Below, in pieces: positions 54,207 through 64,000 of a stretch of 64,000 bases of DNA. The first letter of the stretch is position 1. Each line of letters opens with the position of its first letter. Source of the stretch: Verrucomicrobiota bacterium (lineage in GTDB: Bacteria > Auribacterota > JABMQX01 > JAFGEW01); assembly GCA_016931415.1 (NCBI GenBank), contig JAFGEW010000124.1, forward strand, positions 1-64,000, in the 5' to 3' direction. The notes under the pieces were generated by a model. That model saw only the letters and a list, made by a program, of their open reading frames with translations. It did no database searches and was not told where the DNA came from. The position numbers were made by a program, and so were the translations under genes.

Positions 54207-54289
54207 GCCGGGGTGGCGGAACGGCAGACGCTGGGGACTTAAAATCCCCTGGGCCTCAGCCCGTGTGGGTTCGACTCCCACCCCCGGCA
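54207..54289 (+). tRNA. tRNA-Leu (anticodon TAA)
   Basis: Acceptor GCCGGGG with CCCCGGC and discriminator A; anticodon stem GGGGA/TCCCC with loop CTTAAAA (anticodon TAA); long variable arm; T-arm GTGGGTTCGACTCCCAC. CCA is not encoded. Sits at the border between the core-like region and the accessory region to the right, a common place for integration. Confidence 0.93.
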
Positions 54290-54353
54290 CTCCTCTCATC
54301 TTCAATGACTTGCGGCTTCGAGCAAGGGCGTTGGAGTGCGGCGGAGAAGCTCA

Positions 54354-55133: not shown

Positions 55134-57344
55134 ATGAGCTGGACCACCGTCATATGGTCGATGAGTGGCGGGATCTGCTTGGCCCTGGCGGCTGTGCACT
55201 TCCTCGTCTGGTGCAAGGCGCGCAACTCGTGGCTGCATCTGGCCTTTGCCGTCAGTGCTGCGGCTGCGGCAGCCGCCGGCGTTTTCGAGTTACTGATGAT
55301 GCATTCACAGACGACGGTGGAGTATGGTCAGGCTCTGCGCCTGCTGCAAATACCTGTCCAGGTACTGGTTGTATCACTTGTCTGGTTTGTCTACCTGTAC
55401 CTGAAGGCGGGCCGAAGATGGCTGGCGTGGTCCATCTATGTCTTGCGCGCGCTGATACTCGTCGTCGATTTTGCCTCTGCGCCGAATATCAACTTCCTTG
55501 AAATCACCGCCCTGCGGCAAATTCCGTGGTGGGGCGAAAGGCTGGTTGTGCCGGTCGGTGTTGTCAACCCCTGGGTGTACCTCATCCGGGTAGGAGATGT
55601 GTTGCTGCTCGCGTTTGTCGTGGATGCGGCCGTCGCGGCTTGGCGACAGGGCCGACGACGGCGTGCACTGGTTATGGGAGGCGCAGTAGTCTGCACCATT
55701 ATCGTAGCAGTGACGGTGGCGGTGTTGATGGTCATCGGGGGGCTTTTCATTCCAACGACAGTGACTGTACCTTTCTTGCTCATCGTGTTTGTCATGGGGT
55801 ATGAGATCAGTGTTGATCTGGTTCGAAGCCATCAGCTTGAGCAGGAGTTGCAGGACAGCGAGGCACGCATGCGGCTGGCCGCCGCGGCCACCGGCGTCGG
55901 CCTGTGGGAGTGGAACATAGCAAAGGATGATATCTGGGCCACCGAAAAGACCCGGGCACGCGTCGGCCTCGGAGAATCCGAGAACATGGACTTTGATCGC
56001 TACTTGGAATCGGTTCATCTCGACGACCGTGAGCCGACGCGGCAGGCCGCGCTCCGTGCGCTTGAAGGCCGCGGCGAGTATAGGGCGGAATTTCGGGTGG
56101 TCACTGCGGACGGCGTAACACATTGGGTTTCAGGCCAGGGCCGGGTCGAGCGCGACGGGCAGGGCAAGCCATTTCGCATGAGAGGTACTTCAATTGACAT
56201 CACTGAGCGCAAACAGACGGAAGAGGCTCTCAGGAAAAGCGAAGAGCGGCTCAAGGAGGCCCAGCGTATCGCGCATGTGGGGAACTGGGACTGGAACATC
56301 GTCACGAACGATCTGCTCTGGTCGGACGAGATCTACCGAGTATTCGGTTTGGCTCCGCAGGAGTTCGGGGCCACGTACGAGGCCTTTCTCGACCGCGTCC
56401 ATCCCGACGATCGTGAATTCGTCACCCGTTCGGTGGAGGATGCCGTCCGTGACGGGAAACCGTACAGCATCGATCATCGGATCAGGCTGCCTGACGGTTC
56501 GGAAAGAATAGTCCATGAGCAGGCGGAGGTGATGCGCGGCGCCGATGGCGAGCCGATCCGTATGGTCGGGACTGTGCTTGACATTACCCAGCGCGTTCTT
56601 ATCGAGCAGGAAGCGCGCCGCCTGCACTCGCAGCTCGCCCACTTCGGCAGAGTGAGTATTATGGGGCAGTTCGCAGCATCGCTTGCCCACGAGCTCAACC
56701 AGCCGCTTACGGCGATCCTGAGCAATGCGCAGGCAGCGGTGCGCCTCCTGGCCAACGACAAGCCCGATATTGAGGAGACCCGAGCCGCCCTGGCTGACAT
56801 CGTCCACGATGGCCGTCGTGCCGGTGACGTAATCTACCGGCTCCGGGACCTGCTGAGGAGGGACCGGGAACACAAGTCTTCCTTAGACCTTCATAGCCTG
56901 ATCGAAGAACTGGCATCCCTTCTACGAGGTGAGGCCCAGGCTGAGAACATCTCCATGACTCTGGATCTTGACGAGACTCTGCCGATGGTCCTCGCAGATA
57001 GAGTGGAGATCCAGCAAGTGCTGCTTAACCTGCTTATCAATGGCATTGAAGCGCTCAGAACACGGACAGACACGCCCCGTCATCTGGCTGTTAGAACCTC
57101 GAGGGCGTCAGATAGCCGCATAGAGGTAGCCGTTGCTGATAACGGCGGGGGCATCGGCACAGATCATCTGGAGCGGATCTTCGAGCCGTTCTTCACTACG
57201 AAGGAAGCCGGTATGGGGATGGGCCTGGCGATCTGCAACTCGATCGTACAGGCGCACGGTGGCCGGTTGTGGGCAACCAGCGATCCTGATAGCGGCGCAA
57301 CCTTCCATTTCACGCTGCCCATCTGCGAAAAGGAAGACAGATGA
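55134..57344 (+). CDS. PAS-domain membrane sensor histidine kinase (FixL-like)
   Basis: 736 aa. Six to seven transmembrane helices fill residues ~1-225. Two PAS domains follow (about 245-360 and 375-490), both of the PAS_3 type with W-x-W and ending with ITERK/ITQRV PAC motifs. The HisKA domain has the phospho-acceptor His in FAASLAHELNQPLTAI near 519, and the HATPase domain shows NLLINGIEAL, DNGGGIG and KEAGMGMGLAIC. The H-box and short loops are of the FixL/HPK4 class. It overlaps the response-regulator gene by four bases, so they are a cognate pair. Confidence 0.93.
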   Translation: MSWTTVIWSMSGGICLALAAVHFLVWCKARNSWLHLAFAVSAAAAAAAGVFELLMMHSQTTVEYGQALRLLQIPVQVLVVSLVWFVYLYLKAGRRWLAWSIYVLRALILVVDFASAPNINFLEITALRQIPWWGERLVVPVGVVNPWVYLIRVGDVLLLAFVVDAAVAAWRQGRRRRALVMGGAVVCTIIVAVTVAVLMVIGGLFIPTTVTVPFLLIVFVMGYEISVDLVRSHQLEQELQDSEARMRLAAAATGVGLWEWNIAKDDIWATEKTRARVGLGESENMDFDRYLESVHLDDREPTRQAALRALEGRGEYRAEFRVVTADGVTHWVSGQGRVERDGQGKPFRMRGTSIDITERKQTEEALRKSEERLKEAQRIAHVGNWDWNIVTNDLLWSDEIYRVFGLAPQEFGATYEAFLDRVHPDDREFVTRSVEDAVRDGKPYSIDHRIRLPDGSERIVHEQAEVMRGADGEPIRMVGTVLDITQRVLIEQEARRLHSQLAHFGRVSIMGQFAASLAHELNQPLTAILSNAQAAVRLLANDKPDIEETRAALADIVHDGRRAGDVIYRLRDLLRRDREHKSSLDLHSLIEELASLLRGEAQAENISMTLDLDETLPMVLADRVEIQQVLLNLLINGIEALRTRTDTPRHLAVRTSRASDSRIEVAVADNGGGIGTDHLERIFEPFFTTKEAGMGMGLAICNSIVQAHGGRLWATSDPDSGATFHFTLPICEKEDR

Positions 57345-57964
57345 CGACTCCAGGCGGGGTGGTGTTCATCGTTGATGATGACGTCTCGGTCCGAAAGGCC
57401 CTTGAGCGTCTGGTCAGATCGGCTGGCCTTGATGCCATTGCCCTCCCTTCCGCCACGGACTTCCTGGAACTCGATCTTCCGGAACGGCCGTGCTGTCTGG
57501 TTCTTGATGTGCGGATGCCGGGACTCAGCGGGCTAGGTCTTCAGGATCAGATGCGGGCAAGGAAGCTCGAGCTGCCAATCATCTTCATCACTGGTCATGG
57601 CGATGTCCCGATGACTGTCCGTGCAATGAAAGCGGGCGCGGTTGACTTTCTCCAGAAGCCTGTTGATGACGGTGTCCTGCTCGACACCATATCCAGCGCT
57701 CTCAAGAGGCACGCTGAGTCCCTCACGGCAAGCGCCGAACTCGAGGATATCCACGGGCACCTTGAGCTGCTGACGCCTCGCGAGCGGCAAGTCCTCGGGT
57801 ACCTCATCACGGGCATGCTCAACAAGCAGATTGCGTCTGAGCTTCGCATCACGGAGAAGACTGTCAAAGTCCACCGCGCCCGCGTTCTGAGCAAGATGGG
57901 CGTCGTCTCGATCGCCGAGTTGGTCAGGCTGTCTGAGAGGGCAGGAATACACCCCGCCTCATAG
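57341..57964 (+). CDS. FixJ-type LuxR response regulator
   Basis: 207 aa. The receiver domain (1-120) contains VFIVDDDVSVRKALERLV, the acceptor Asp in CLVLDVRMPGLSGLGLQ, ITGHGDVPMTVRAMKAGAVDFLQKPV. The LuxR HTH lies at about 135-195 (LTPRERQVLGYLITGMLNKQIASELRITEKTVKVHRARVLSKM). This is the FixJ/NodW/TodT pattern. It overlaps the kinase gene by ATGA, so the two are co-translated. The target genes may be the porin and hydrolase genes downstream, which is inferred from position. Confidence 0.94.
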   Translation: MTTPGGVVFIVDDDVSVRKALERLVRSAGLDAIALPSATDFLELDLPERPCCLVLDVRMPGLSGLGLQDQMRARKLELPIIFITGHGDVPMTVRAMKAGAVDFLQKPVDDGVLLDTISSALKRHAESLTASAELEDIHGHLELLTPRERQVLGYLITGMLNKQIASELRITEKTVKVHRARVLSKMGVVSIAELVRLSERAGIHPAS

Positions 57965-58055
57965 CCCCGGCCATTGGACCAAGGTCCAATAGACGCCACC
58001 TCCCATAGTGCCTATCGTTCGGAATAGCGGAATCACTCACAGTAGAGGAAACGGC

Positions 58056-58433
58056 GTGCAACGTCACCTTCACGAGATAGTGGTCGTCGACGACGACGTG
58101 AGTGTCTGCCGGGCCTTCTCAAGACTTCTGAAGAGCTGTGGCTTCGATGTCAGGACCTACACATCCACGGAGAGCTTTTTCGACGCCGAGACACCTTGTG
58201 ACAAGTGTGTGCTGATACTCGATATTCGAATGCCGGGGATCGATGGCCTGGAAGTGCAGGACATCATCCGGAAGACCAATCCGGCCACACCCATCGTCTT
58301 TGTGACGGCTCATGAGGACGAGGAGGCAAGAACAAGGGCCCTCGACGGCGGAGCCAGAGCGTTTCTGCGGAAACCCGTGAATGAGGAGGACCTGCTGCGG
58401 GCCGTAAATGAGGCTATGGGCGGGGTGGAATGA
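58056..58433 (+). CDS. Stand-alone receiver domain protein
   Basis: 125 aa, receiver domain only: IVVVDDDVSVCRAF, acceptor Asp in LILDIRMPGIDGLEV, TAHED and FLRKPV. No output domain. GAGGAAAC precedes GTG 58056; an earlier GTG at 58008 lacks a ribosome-binding site. It may be a phosphate sink or a second target of the kinase. It lies 91 bases after the FixJ-type gene. Confidence 0.85.
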   Translation: MQRHLHEIVVVDDDVSVCRAFSRLLKSCGFDVRTYTSTESFFDAETPCDKCVLILDIRMPGIDGLEVQDIIRKTNPATPIVFVTAHEDEEARTRALDGGARAFLRKPVNEEDLLRAVNEAMGGVE

Positions 58434-58558
58434 TGGGACGGGCTCACTGCAACGATGGACCCCTGGATTTCTCGCGACGCGGCTACAGATGCGAAAGACA
58501 GGCCCAAATAGCAGAGGATGAGCAGGAGGCCTATGGCCGATCGTCCGGAGTCGTCTCT

Positions 58559-59914
58559 ATGGGAACGAGGTTTGCACTGACTCTCATTGGGTTGTCGGTG
58601 GTTTTTGCCTTTGCCGTTGCGAGCGCACGGGCCCAAGAGACGACCGGGAAGAGTCCTCCCGTTATGTCCGAGGCGGCCGGCGGTCCCGCAGCATCGGCAA
58701 GTCAAGAGCAGGAAGCTGCCACCGGCATAGCCGGTCCAGGCGCGTCCTCGCGAGATCGTCTGACCGGTGACTGGGGCGGCGCGAGGACTTCTCTCGAGGA
58801 GAGGGGTTTTACCATACGAGGGTGGTTCACGCAGTTCATACAAGGTCCCGTATCCGGTGGGAGATCAAACCGCGCCAGCTTCGGCAGCAAGCTCAACATC
58901 GACCTCAGCATCGACGGCGAGAAGGCAGGACTCTGGGAAGGCCTCAGGGTTGATATTCGCGCCGAGGGCCGGTTCGGAGATTCCGCGACTGATGACATGG
59001 CCGCGCTGTTACCCGTGAGCTTTGCGATGAGCCAACCGTCTTCCGACTACGACGGGATGTCGATACCCAACTTCAAGATCACGCAGAGGATCACCGATCG
59101 GATCTCGGTGTTTGCCGGTCGCGCGCTGCTTCTTGACGGCTATCGAAATGCCTTCGCGGCCGGCATGGGCGAGACGGCATTCGTCCACACGGCCCTTGTT
59201 GCCAAGCCCGTGCTCTCGGGACAGATGAGCTACTCAGCATGGACCGCCGGGAGCGTGTTCAGCCTGGGGGGCGGGGTCTCTTTCAAGTCAGTCGTTCAGG
59301 ATCCCCACAATGTACCGACAACACTGGGGCTTGATACGCTGGGCGACGACGGCGTCACCCTGCTTCAGGAACTGAGTTTCCCCACGCGCTTCGGCGGACT
59401 TCCCGGCTCGCATATCATTGATTTTACGTGGAGCAACAAGGAGCGCACCTCTCTCGACCGCAACGACGCCGTTGTCGTCCCGGAAGGCGGCGTGGTGCCC
59501 GGCACGAAGGACACCAGTTGGGGGCTGTACTACCAGTTCGACCAGTTTCTGTGGGTGGTGCCCGGTGACGAGTCACGCGGGTGGGGAATCTTCGGCCAGT
59601 TGTCCGTATCCGATGGCAATCCCGATCCGATCGAGTGGTTCACTCATTTCGGGGTCAGCGGTGTCGGCAACTGTGGAGGACGGCCGCGCGACCGATGGGG
59701 AGTCGGCTATTTTTACGCGGGGTTGTCTGACACTCTCAAGAGGTCGCTCAGTTCGGTGCTCGACCTGCGGGACGAGCAGGGCTTCGAGGCCTACTACAGC
59801 ATCGCCATGACACCGGCATGCCACCTGACTCCGGACATACAATTCGTGCGGGCGGCGGATGGACGGGAGGACTGGACGACAATTCTGGGGCTCAGGGTGA
59901 GGCTGGAGTTCTAG
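58559..59914 (+). CDS. OprB-family carbohydrate-selective porin
   Basis: 451 aa. A signal peptide (1-25, ending SARA-QE) and a Ser/Ala-rich spacer are followed by DRLTGDWGGARTSLEERGFTIRGWF, the OprB hallmark, and a long beta-barrel pattern ending in Phe (LGLRVRLEF), as in outer-membrane barrels. OprB-type porins let sugars or related solutes cross the outer membrane. Start: ATG 58559 with CGGAG upstream, preferred over ATG 58430, which overlaps the previous gene and lacks a signal peptide. It is likely to be in the same unit as the amidohydrolase gene. Confidence 0.88.
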   Translation: MGTRFALTLIGLSVVFAFAVASARAQETTGKSPPVMSEAAGGPAASASQEQEAATGIAGPGASSRDRLTGDWGGARTSLEERGFTIRGWFTQFIQGPVSGGRSNRASFGSKLNIDLSIDGEKAGLWEGLRVDIRAEGRFGDSATDDMAALLPVSFAMSQPSSDYDGMSIPNFKITQRITDRISVFAGRALLLDGYRNAFAAGMGETAFVHTALVAKPVLSGQMSYSAWTAGSVFSLGGGVSFKSVVQDPHNVPTTLGLDTLGDDGVTLLQELSFPTRFGGLPGSHIIDFTWSNKERTSLDRNDAVVVPEGGVVPGTKDTSWGLYYQFDQFLWVVPGDESRGWGIFGQLSVSDGNPDPIEWFTHFGVSGVGNCGGRPRDRWGVGYFYAGLSDTLKRSLSSVLDLRDEQGFEAYYSIAMTPACHLTPDIQFVRAADGREDWTTILGLRVRLEF

Positions 59915-60009: not shown

Positions 60010-62502
60010 ATGAAGACGCTGTTCAGCATCCTCGTTCTCGCGGCTCTCTCGGTGCTTGTGGCATCGGCATTCGCCGTGGAGTACGACCTGGTCGTCAATA
60101 ACGGCCGGGTCATGGACCCGGAGACGATGTATGACGCCGTCGCCAACGTTGGCATCACGGACGGCAAGATCGCTGTCATCACCCAGGACAAGATCACGGG
60201 CAAAGAGACCATCGACGCCACGGGGTTGGTGGTTGCGCCGGGATTTATCGATGGGCACCAACATTGTATTGAGCCCTATCAATACCGGTTGATGCTCCGC
60301 GACGGTCGTACGACGCTTCTGGACACAGAGATCGGCGCTCACGGTCCAAAGCTCGACGAGTGGTACAAACGGCGTGAAGGAAAAGCACCGGTGAATTACG
60401 GCGTGGCGGTGGCACACGAATTTGCGCGGGCTGAGGTCTTGGACGGCTTTACCGATTGGAAACATTTATACACTCCCGACGCGGAGAAAACCCGCTCCAC
60501 AAAGGTCAAGATAGACGGCAAAGAAACCATTAAGGAGGGTTGGTCCAAGACCCGGCCCAATCTGGAGCAGGGAAACCAGATCCTTTCCCTGATTGACGAA
60601 GGCTTGGCGCAGGGAGCACTTGGCATCGGTTCTACCGTTGGCTACATGCGCGCCGGGGTCTCGGCCCGCGAGATATTTGAACTGCAAAAGCTGGGCGGGC
60701 TATACGGCCGCTTTATCGCCATGCATTTCCGCTATACGCCCGGTGATGATACCACCGAAGTCAACGGTATCCAGGAGATGCTCGCAAACGCGGCGGCATT
60801 AGGGACGCCGGCCATCGCCTCCCATTTCAATAATCCGGGATACAATATGGTGCATGAGCTTATGGTGCGGATGCGGGAACGGGGTTACAACGTCTGGGGT
60901 GAAATCTATCCATATGCCGCAGGATCCACTGCGCTGAATGCTGTATTTCTCGAGCCGGAAGTCTGGGTACAGGCCCTGGGCAACAAATACGAAGATACGC
61001 TTCAGGATGTCGCGACCGGCGAATTCTACACCCAGAACTCGCGTGAGGAGATGCTCAAAAAGGAACCCGCACGTCTCGTGCTTGTCTACAAAAGCCCCGA
61101 ATCGGCGATTGTTGACTGGCTTAGAATGCCCGGCGTGGCTATTGGTAGCGACGGCATGCCCATGATCCCAAGCGATAACCTAACCTGGGATACTCCCTTC
61201 GAAGATCTGCCCAATACCCACCCGCGTACTTCCGGATCTTTTGCCACAGTGCTTCGCCTGTCAAGGGAAAACAATATTCCGCTGATGCAGGCCATATCCA
61301 TGACCAGTTACAATTATGCAAAGCCGCTGGGGGAGATGGGTTTGGAGTCCATGCAGGTTCGTGGCCGCATGCAGGAAGGCATGGTTGCCGACATCACCAT
61401 ATTCGATCCTGAAACGGTAAGGGACAATTCGACCTACGCAAACGGTAGACTACCGTCCACGGGAATTCTTCACGTACTTGTCAATGGAGTCATCGTCATG
61501 AAAGACCAGGAGCCTCTAAAGGACGTGAATCCTGGGCAGCCGATCCGCTTTGAACCCGTCAAGAGCAAGTTCGAACCGCTCACCAAAGAGGGGTGGACCC
61601 AGACCTACTATGCCTCCCCGATTGATTTTGGCGGCGGTGTGCCCGGATCGCAACCTGCCAAGACAAGAATCCCTCAAGAAGACCAGGGAAAAGAGAGTAC
61701 CGAGCTAGGGCCCAACCCCTTGATGAAGCAGGCGGTGTCAGCCGACGAGGTTGCCAGGCAGTTGGCAGATCCGAACTCTGTGCTTGGGTCATTGAACTTC
61801 AATCTCGACTACATTACTTATAAAGGCGACCTGCCGGGGGCATCTGATCAGAGCGCAACTCGCTTGACCTTTCAACCCGTCTTTCCCTATCCGATCAACG
61901 ACACTACCAACTTTTACCTGCGGCCCGCTGTGCCGGTTGTGATTGCTCAAGACGTTCCGAAAGCAGGCGGATTCGATAATAAAGGTGTCGAACTTGGGGA
62001 TATTGGCTTTGATGCCGCGGTGGGCAAAAGTCTTCCAGGTGGCTATGTGGTGGTCGGTGGTATTGTGGGCACCTTGCCCACGGCAACAGACGACGCATTG
62101 GGTCTGGACCAGTGGTTGCTCGGCCCAGAGGTCGCTTTTGGAAAGGTTGCCAAATGGGGTGTGGTCGGTTTGCTCGTCTCGCATCAGTGGGACGTTGCTG
62201 GCGAGGACAGTTTTTCAACAAGTATCACCGGTGGACAGTATTTCTACACGTTTAACCTCAGCGATGGCTGGCAGATTAGCTCGTCTCCGACCTTCTCCTA
62301 CAACCACGAGGCGCAAAGCGGACAAGAGTGGACGTTTCCGCTGGGTGTCGGTGTGTCTAAGACCACAATCCTTGCTGGCCGGCCCTGGAAGTTCGGTCTC
62401 CAATACTGGAACTACATCGAGCAACCCGATCCATTCGGTCCCGATTGGGAGGTGCGTTTCACCGTAACCCGGGTAGTCTCCTTGCCATGGGGTAATAAAT
62501 AG
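60010..62502 (+). CDS. Exported D-aminoacylase-like amidohydrolase fused to an outer-membrane barrel-like domain
   Basis: 830 aa. A signal peptide (1-22) is followed by an amidohydrolase of the N-acyl-D-amino-acid deacylase type (about 25-520): YDLVVNNGRVMDPETM, GFIDGHQHC with two metal-binding His, GIGSTVGYMRAGVSAREIFEL, SDGMP, and the closing GRMQEGMVADITIFDP. From ~570 on the chain is a different, beta-rich region (YITYKGDLPGASDQSATRLTFQPVFPYPI, GGIVGTLPTATDD, DQWLLGPEVAFGK, TFSYNHEA, WTFPLGVGVSKT) ending WGNK, as in neuromedin U-like 'transporter' barrels. A linked enzyme-barrel is unusual. AGGAGG lies before ATG 60010. The composition is less GC-rich than the core. Confidence 0.82.
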   Translation: MKTLFSILVLAALSVLVASAFAVEYDLVVNNGRVMDPETMYDAVANVGITDGKIAVITQDKITGKETIDATGLVVAPGFIDGHQHCIEPYQYRLMLRDGRTTLLDTEIGAHGPKLDEWYKRREGKAPVNYGVAVAHEFARAEVLDGFTDWKHLYTPDAEKTRSTKVKIDGKETIKEGWSKTRPNLEQGNQILSLIDEGLAQGALGIGSTVGYMRAGVSAREIFELQKLGGLYGRFIAMHFRYTPGDDTTEVNGIQEMLANAAALGTPAIASHFNNPGYNMVHELMVRMRERGYNVWGEIYPYAAGSTALNAVFLEPEVWVQALGNKYEDTLQDVATGEFYTQNSREEMLKKEPARLVLVYKSPESAIVDWLRMPGVAIGSDGMPMIPSDNLTWDTPFEDLPNTHPRTSGSFATVLRLSRENNIPLMQAISMTSYNYAKPLGEMGLESMQVRGRMQEGMVADITIFDPETVRDNSTYANGRLPSTGILHVLVNGVIVMKDQEPLKDVNPGQPIRFEPVKSKFEPLTKEGWTQTYYASPIDFGGGVPGSQPAKTRIPQEDQGKESTELGPNPLMKQAVSADEVARQLADPNSVLGSLNFNLDYITYKGDLPGASDQSATRLTFQPVFPYPINDTTNFYLRPAVPVVIAQDVPKAGGFDNKGVELGDIGFDAAVGKSLPGGYVVVGGIVGTLPTATDDALGLDQWLLGPEVAFGKVAKWGVVGLLVSHQWDVAGEDSFSTSITGGQYFYTFNLSDGWQISSSPTFSYNHEAQSGQEWTFPLGVGVSKTTILAGRPWKFGLQYWNYIEQPDPFGPDWEVRFTVTRVVSLPWGNK

Positions 62503-62903
62503 CAGGGGCCAAGACCTGGAAAGATGGAAATCGAAAAGATACAGCTGATTAAAGAAGCTTGTTCAGGGCCTGGCGGCAGATTCTTACCGCCGATGAAATC
62601 TTCCCGGACATGAATGTTACTATTGGGTAGGAGAACTAAATTGAAATGACTAACAGCGCTTTTAGCGGAAATGAGAATGAAGACTACATTACATGTTATC
62701 CAATGGCTGGTGCTGGTCGTCACCCCGATGTCATCATGAAGGACGGCAAAATCTACAAAAACAATATTAAATAGGTAACTGGTTCGTAATGCTTCGAACC
62801 CTGTAAGTTTAAAAAAGGAAAATGGAGGAAAATGGAAAACATGATGAAAAAGATAGTTAGACACTTAAATCTGATAAACACAAATATTCGAAGGAGAATA
62901 CCC
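62503..62903. other. A/T-rich gap between two hydrolase genes
   Basis: About 400 bases clearly richer in A and T than anything else in the window. It contains the amidohydrolase-like tail at 62646 and a second possible start (ATG 62832, after GGAGG) that is in frame with the serine-hydrolase gene. It marks a junction of material of different origin. Confidence 0.5.
62646..62774 (+). pseudogene. Small ORF resembling an amidohydrolase C-terminal tail
   Basis: 42 codons. The end reads HPDVIMKDGKIYKNNIK, the usual closing phrase of imidazolonepropionase-like amidohydrolases (V-MKDGKIYKN). The first 25 codons have no counterpart. It lies in an A/T-rich gap and has no ribosome-binding site. Likely the leftover end of a gene, though a tiny real gene cannot be ruled out. 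Confidence 0.4.
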
Positions 62904-64000
62904 ATGAAACGAAACACAGCGCTGTTTTTTATTGCACTAGTCTCGTCATTGATGACAGTTCAACTGTACAAGTTTCTAAACTCGGTGGCCGTGATTGCCA
63001 CCATTCTAACGCTTTCTGGAACGGCCGCACTTGCCCAGGATCCGCCTCAGGTCGTGGAAGCCCTGAAGGTCGAGGGTGCGCGCGTAACCTTGCCGGTGAG
63101 CGTGGCAATCACCAAGGATGTCTTTACGCCGGAGTTCATTCGCAGCGCGCGCGAGAACTGGGGCAACTTCCATTTCCAGATGGGCGGCGATCACGCGCTT
63201 TACTACGCGATGCACCTGGGCGAGTTCATGCCCTCGGCCGAAGCCTCGCCAAACGTCAACTATAAGGTTCTGGAACGGGATCTCCGGCCCGAGTTACTTC
63301 ATCTCAAGCAGTCCACGAGCAAGGGCGATTTAACGCTCCAGGAATACATGGTCGATCCGCTCTACCGTGCACAGGCCATGATCATGGTGCATAAGGGCAA
63401 GGTCGTTTACGAGAACTATCCGGGTATGCGCCCGACCGACCGTCACCTGACGGCCTCGACTGGCAAGATCACCGTTGGCGCGGTCCTTATGCAGTTGATC
63501 GCCGAGGGTAAGGTCGATCTCAAGAAACCGTTTACCGAGTATGTGACGGAACTGAAGGGCACCGTCTGGGATGATGTGTCCACCTACGCCGTGGCTAATA
63601 TGACCACGGGCCTCGACAACGAGGAAACGGTCGAAGCCCTGCTGCAGCCGGACTCGCCCGTCACGCGCTTCCTCGCCACCACCTTGGGCTCCCCTCGTGC
63701 GACCACGGGTGTAGTCGAGGGCTGGATCGACGTGGCGCGTGACCAGAAGAAGTTGGGTAATGGCGAGAAGCCAGGTGATGTGACGCGCTATGCCTCGCTC
63801 AACACGACTGTCTTGACACGGTTGATCGAGAATATCGAGAAGAAACCCTTCGTTGAAGTTTTCGAGGAACGGTTCTGGTCGAAGCTTTATGCCCGTCAGC
63901 CGATGATGTTCGGCCTTACGCCCGATGGAACCGCACTGCCGGTGGGTTTAGCCATGGCGACCCCCGAGGATTATGCGAAATTCGGGGTGATGTTCACGCC
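62904..64000 (+). CDS. Beta-lactamase-family serine hydrolase (5' part, runs off window)
   Basis: At least 365 residues, open to the window edge. AAGGAG lies before ATG 62904. The N-terminus is hydrophobic with a signal-like end (TLSGTAALAQDP). The class C beta-lactamase-like motifs are ASTGK (SxxK; preceded by RHLT) and YASLN near 285, with the pattern of the 6-aminohexanoate-dimer hydrolase family (MIMVHKGKVVYENY). Further upstream in-frame ATGs are at 62832 and 62952 (the latter gives a clearer signal peptide). Possible roles: esterase, peptidase or amide hydrolase. The catalytic end is outside the window. Confidence 0.85.
   Translation, partial: MKRNTALFFIALVSSLMTVQLYKFLNSVAVIATILTLSGTAALAQDPPQVVEALKVEGARVTLPVSVAITKDVFTPEFIRSARENWGNFHFQMGGDHALYYAMHLGEFMPSAEASPNVNYKVLERDLRPELLHLKQSTSKGDLTLQEYMVDPLYRAQAMIMVHKGKVVYENYPGMRPTDRHLTASTGKITVGAVLMQLIAEGKVDLKKPFTEYVTELKGTVWDDVSTYAVANMTTGLDNEETVEALLQPDSPVTRFLATTLGSPRATTGVVEGWIDVARDQKKLGNGEKPGDVTRYASLNTTVLTRLIENIEKKPFVEVFEERFWSKLYARQPMMFGLTPDGTALPVGLAMATPEDYAKFGVMFT

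Follow-up and report, generated by a model that had tools for sequence, protein, structure and literature searches.

We found an exported amidohydrolase and an outer-membrane beta-barrel joined in a single reading frame in the window, the 64,000-nucleotide stretch of DNA analyzed here. The fused gene (60010–62502, + strand) begins with ATG and encodes 830 amino acids without an internal stop. Along the same strand, the product comprises a Sec-type signal peptide (residues 1–22, MKTLFSILVLAALSVLVASAFA; 60010–60075), an amidohydrolase domain of the PRK09061 type (residues ~23–545; 60076–61644), a linker that spans the fusion point and contains neither a signal peptide nor a stop (residues ~546–573, GSQPAKTRIPQEDQGKESTELGPNPLMK; 61645–61728), and an outer-membrane beta-barrel domain with a COG4313/FapF-like fold, assigned from the predicted fold and from alignment to relatives (residues ~574–830; 61729–62502). 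The open frame, the profile matches and the predicted barrel bear out the original prediction of a single frame encoding an exported D-aminoacylase-like enzyme together with an outer-membrane barrel, and the observed fusion is confirmed. The protein is a new combination of domains from known families, seen in a single instance; a search of its own genome with the whole protein returned only the fused gene as a match to the entire length, and a literature search for an enzyme-barrel fusion of this kind found no report.

Separate domain searches, the check suggested in the original prediction, gave a family for the enzyme half, as residues 1–515 match NF006560/PRK09061 (NCBIfam, 360.3 bits against a cut-off of 340) and also Pfam Amidohydro_3, but none for the other half, residues 561–830 having no Pfam or NCBIfam match. 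The superfamily's metal-ligand motifs (HxH, a pair of His, and Asp) are intact and shared with relatives (GHQH at 82–85, H239, H272 and D381), and E107 is a glutamate conserved in the enzyme's group. The signal peptide, with a hydrophobic peak of 2.85 over 15 aa, is positioned as in relatives. The nearest solved structures, D-aminoacylase (1m7j) and N-acyl-D-glutamate deacylase (3gip), are distant (E about 1e-21), and the aligned part of the D-aminoacylase match (E 8e-22) does not reach the bridging-Cys region of the characterized enzyme. With the PRK09061/NF006560 amidohydrolases the enzyme half thus shares a whole-domain match above the cut-off, the HxH/His/His/Asp motifs, the signal peptide and the clustering with peptide or amide hydrolases; these relatives stop at ~550 aa with short tails, whereas in the fused protein the usual C-terminal tail is absent and the barrel stands in its place. 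Metal-dependent bile salt hydrolases (PMC13081902) were considered as a lead and dropped, because they are longer, differ in type and have a carboxylated lysine.

The barrel half was identified by alignment and structure prediction. Residues ~575–830 align over their full length with free-standing outer-membrane proteins of ~300 aa, at about 31–64% identity, that are annotated as 'transporter' or hypothetical. AlphaFold2, given the barrel alone with an alignment of ten relatives, predicted about 12 long strands with a helix before the first (pLDDT 81.8); full-length prediction of the fused protein was poor (pLDDT 54.4). In a Foldseek comparison of the barrel model with the PDB, a COG4313 channel ranked first (4rl8, E 1e-7, TM about 0.6) and FapF next. 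The predicted barrel has the 12-strand fold of the COG4313 channels (4rl8, Pput2725; PMC4493636), which are its best fold match and resemble it in strand number, in length and in the helix that precedes the first strand. Those channels are free-standing and carry their own signal peptides, whereas the barrel in the window has no match to their sequence family, has no signal peptide of its own and has an enzyme attached.

In relatives, the two parts are separate genes. A whole-protein scan of GTDB genomes yielded 80 loci, and the amidohydrolase in each locus examined ends at or soon after the position of residue 545, usually with GSQP...HIH or CCDF...H; in some lineages it bears a longer, unrelated tail. 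A barrel lies near the enzyme in 11 loci, as a separate gene of ~300 aa with its own signal peptide, and the two genes are direct neighbors, with under ~250 bp between them, in L022, L047, L049, L054 and L069. The search for the same fusion elsewhere, also proposed in the original prediction, found no second case in the 80 loci or in about 1,600 whole genomes; these included the phylum to which the window belongs, the class containing the Desulfobacteraceae relative, and orders around the gammaproteobacterial, Bacteroidota and alphaproteobacterial relatives. A 1018-aa frame in one genome (G1424) was rejected as a candidate, as it proved to be read-through into a separate neighboring gene. Elsewhere, the longest frames enclosing a strong barrel match run to 430–510 aa; the two of these that were read (L125 and L128) encode barrel proteins of the same family with an N-terminal extension of ~110 aa, which in L125 has no Pfam match. 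Such extensions suggest that the barrel tolerates additions at its N-terminus.

The junction falls where the enzyme's relatives terminate and the barrel's relatives have a signal peptide. The original prediction named as grounds against itself that the parts be separate genes in relatives and that the loss of one stop codon explain the frame. The former is what we observed, but a single lost stop does not account for the frame, because, besides the stop, the frame lacks the enzyme's last ~10 residues, the spacer and the signal peptide of the barrel. Past their signal peptides, the closest barrels begin with segments such as QEEQSNEEIARELANPNT, where the fused protein reads QEDQGKES...SADEVARQLADPNS. 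A hidden frameshift masking a normal gene boundary was also rejected, as the other frames at the junction are interrupted by stops and contain nothing resembling a signal peptide. The deletion endpoints leave both domains whole, and the removed parts are only those that would block a fusion.

The two halves have different histories. The closest enzyme is from a Desulfobacteraceae metagenome-assembled genome (L022/L145), with 90% protein and 91% DNA identity, and the DNA match ends at the end of the enzyme; the barrel encoded at L022 is only 45% identical to that of the window. In the enzyme tree the window is sister to L022 (support 99), while in the barrel tree the window's barrel and those of L022 and L023 lie on opposite sides of a fully supported split. 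This discordance indicates that the fusion joined partners of different ancestry. We consider the balance about even that this is a true gene fusion, formed within a horizontally acquired, rearranged cluster, that tethers an enzyme at a channel.

The surrounding DNA looks most like a cluster that was transferred and rearranged. GC content falls from ~65% to 48–60% between about 55 and 65 kb and then rises again, and GC3 is 0.60–0.72 in the cluster versus 0.89 in uvrC on the same contig, a gene that fits the host's own phylum. A tRNA-Leu(TAA) gene at 54207–54290 (+ strand) has its 3´ half duplicated 15,813 bp downstream, at contig position 70055–70104 (C124; L144 13056–13105), where a perfect 30-bp core lies within a longer copy and there is no complete tRNA. 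Direct repetition of a tRNA 3´ end on the far side is a mark of an integrated, rearranged element; reading the translations of the larger ORFs as far as the repeat revealed no evident integrase. Upstream of the fusion, on the same strand, are genes for a histidine kinase and two response regulators (55134–58433), whose counterparts are identically ordered in the Desulfobacteraceae cluster L145, and an OprB-family porin (58430–59914; PF04966, 122 bits). Downstream, also on the + strand, are a C-terminal remnant of another amidohydrolase (...VIMKDGKIYKNNIK; 62640–62775), with no intact gene, and a serine hydrolase gene that runs past the window (62832–64000; PF00144, 91 bits for the full gene). 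Both the porin and the serine hydrolase had been anticipated as neighbors. The first ~130 bp of the serine hydrolase gene (within 62832–63000) resemble, at 82% nucleotide identity, the leader of a different gene in L145 (L145:9457–9587), which encodes a class A beta-lactamase-type protein unrelated to the serine hydrolase. The serine hydrolase may bear two hydrophobic N-terminal stretches. Farther downstream, an amidohydrolase gene (L144:7415–7993, contig ~64414–64992) breaks off after ~190 aa, at a jump in GC content to ~65%. The Desulfobacteraceae cluster contains a truncated second amidohydrolase (L145:8713–9348), so such clusters are rearranged elsewhere too.

This setting bears on whether the fusion is an accident, that is, left behind by deletions as a transferred cluster decays, functionless as a fusion and with a frame not yet broken. 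The same stretch holds the remnant amidohydrolase end, the truncated amidohydrolase and the serine hydrolase with its joined-on leader, and the fusion is unique among about 1,600 genomes, all in keeping with an accident. Nevertheless, both domains are complete, in frame and undamaged over 830 codons, with the breakpoints outside both, and the enzyme part shows a dN/dS of about 0.15 relative to L022, though most of this divergence may predate the fusion. Taken together, we regard an accidental origin as unlikely, while giving it real weight. We judge it improbable that an assembler joined two genes from different strains or organisms. The fusion is one example from a 134-contig assembly whose contamination is estimated at 4.5%, and its two domains point to different relatives, but the frame is kept, GC and GC3 are similar on either side of the junction, and the host genes alongside, uvrC for example, fit the host's own phylum. 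Moreover, the junction DNA is single-copy in the genome, leaving no repeat to mislead the assembler, so repeat-driven misassembly is rejected.

If functional, the fused protein is most likely an outer-membrane channel with a periplasmic enzyme tethered at its mouth, by analogy with two known systems. In FapF (5o65; PMC5557850), which has a similar barrel fold, a helical plug is linked to an N-terminal periplasmic coiled-coil platform; that part serves amyloid export, whereas the corresponding part of the fused protein is an enzyme. In PlpD (PMC11116518), an enzyme domain N-terminal to an outer-membrane barrel is kept in the periplasm. The PlpD domains are unrelated to those described here, PlpD being an Omp85 protein with POTRA domains and a 16-strand barrel; the fused protein has no Pfam match to a POTRA domain or Omp85 barrel and a predicted barrel of about 12 long strands. 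Together, the periplasmic enzyme of PlpD and the architecture of FapF make a tethered enzyme at a channel the best available mechanism. COG4313 channels are thought to import hydrophobic molecules, and their N-terminal segment sits in the lumen (PMC4493636), so the N-terminus of the window's barrel is expected to be periplasmic, which would suit an N-terminal periplasmic enzyme.

We infer the expression, insertion, topology, tethering and substrate of the fused protein as follows. Loss of the enzyme's final ~10 codons, along with the spacer and the signal peptide of the barrel, would have joined a PRK09061-type exported amidohydrolase in frame to the mature part of a COG4313/FapF-like channel. 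The single signal peptide would route the entire chain through Sec, the C-terminal barrel would insert in the outer membrane, and the amidohydrolase would fold in the periplasm, held by a flexible linker of ~30 residues at the channel's periplasmic mouth, where it could cleave N-acyl or amide compounds entering via the channel. With somewhat less than even confidence, we propose a substrate-processing channel, a COG4313-like uptake pore whose covalently tethered periplasmic amidohydrolase deacylates incoming compounds, formed from two genes that are often neighbors in amide-degradation clusters. Cutting of the chain in the periplasm at the linker, which would release a separate enzyme and channel and reduce the fusion to a coupling of export, appears a distant prospect: the linker is disordered in the low-confidence full-length model and the relatives presumably work as separate proteins, but neither a protease site nor a precedent was identified in this analysis. 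Export of the amidohydrolase to the cell surface by the barrel, as in autotransporters, is highly improbable, since, despite a C-terminal barrel of about 12 strands after a helix and the presence of Hbp and BrkA lower in the Foldseek list, the protein has no Pfam match to an autotransporter (type V) barrel domain, the best folds are COG4313 and FapF, and the barrel has no passenger in its separate state.

Related clusters in other phyla bring together the barrel, an M19 membrane dipeptidase, beta-lactamase-fold hydrolases and D-aminoacylase-like amidohydrolases. The gene neighborhood is compatible with a role in breaking down N-acyl amino acids or peptides; for the originally predicted local breakdown and uptake of N-acyl or peptide compounds, the clustering of amide and peptide hydrolases fits, while no substrate is assignable. 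The barrel and the amidohydrolase sit side by side, with no assigned function, in clusters of several phyla. A functional fusion would be direct evidence that the two act on the same substrate and would give an outer-membrane channel for uptake that carries its own enzyme; an accidental one would document how transferred catabolic clusters yield chimeric genes. We also noted that many exported amidohydrolases of loci L023–L046 have short C-terminal tails rich in His or Cys (HIH, CCDF..H) that may bind metal; the fusion has lost its tail.
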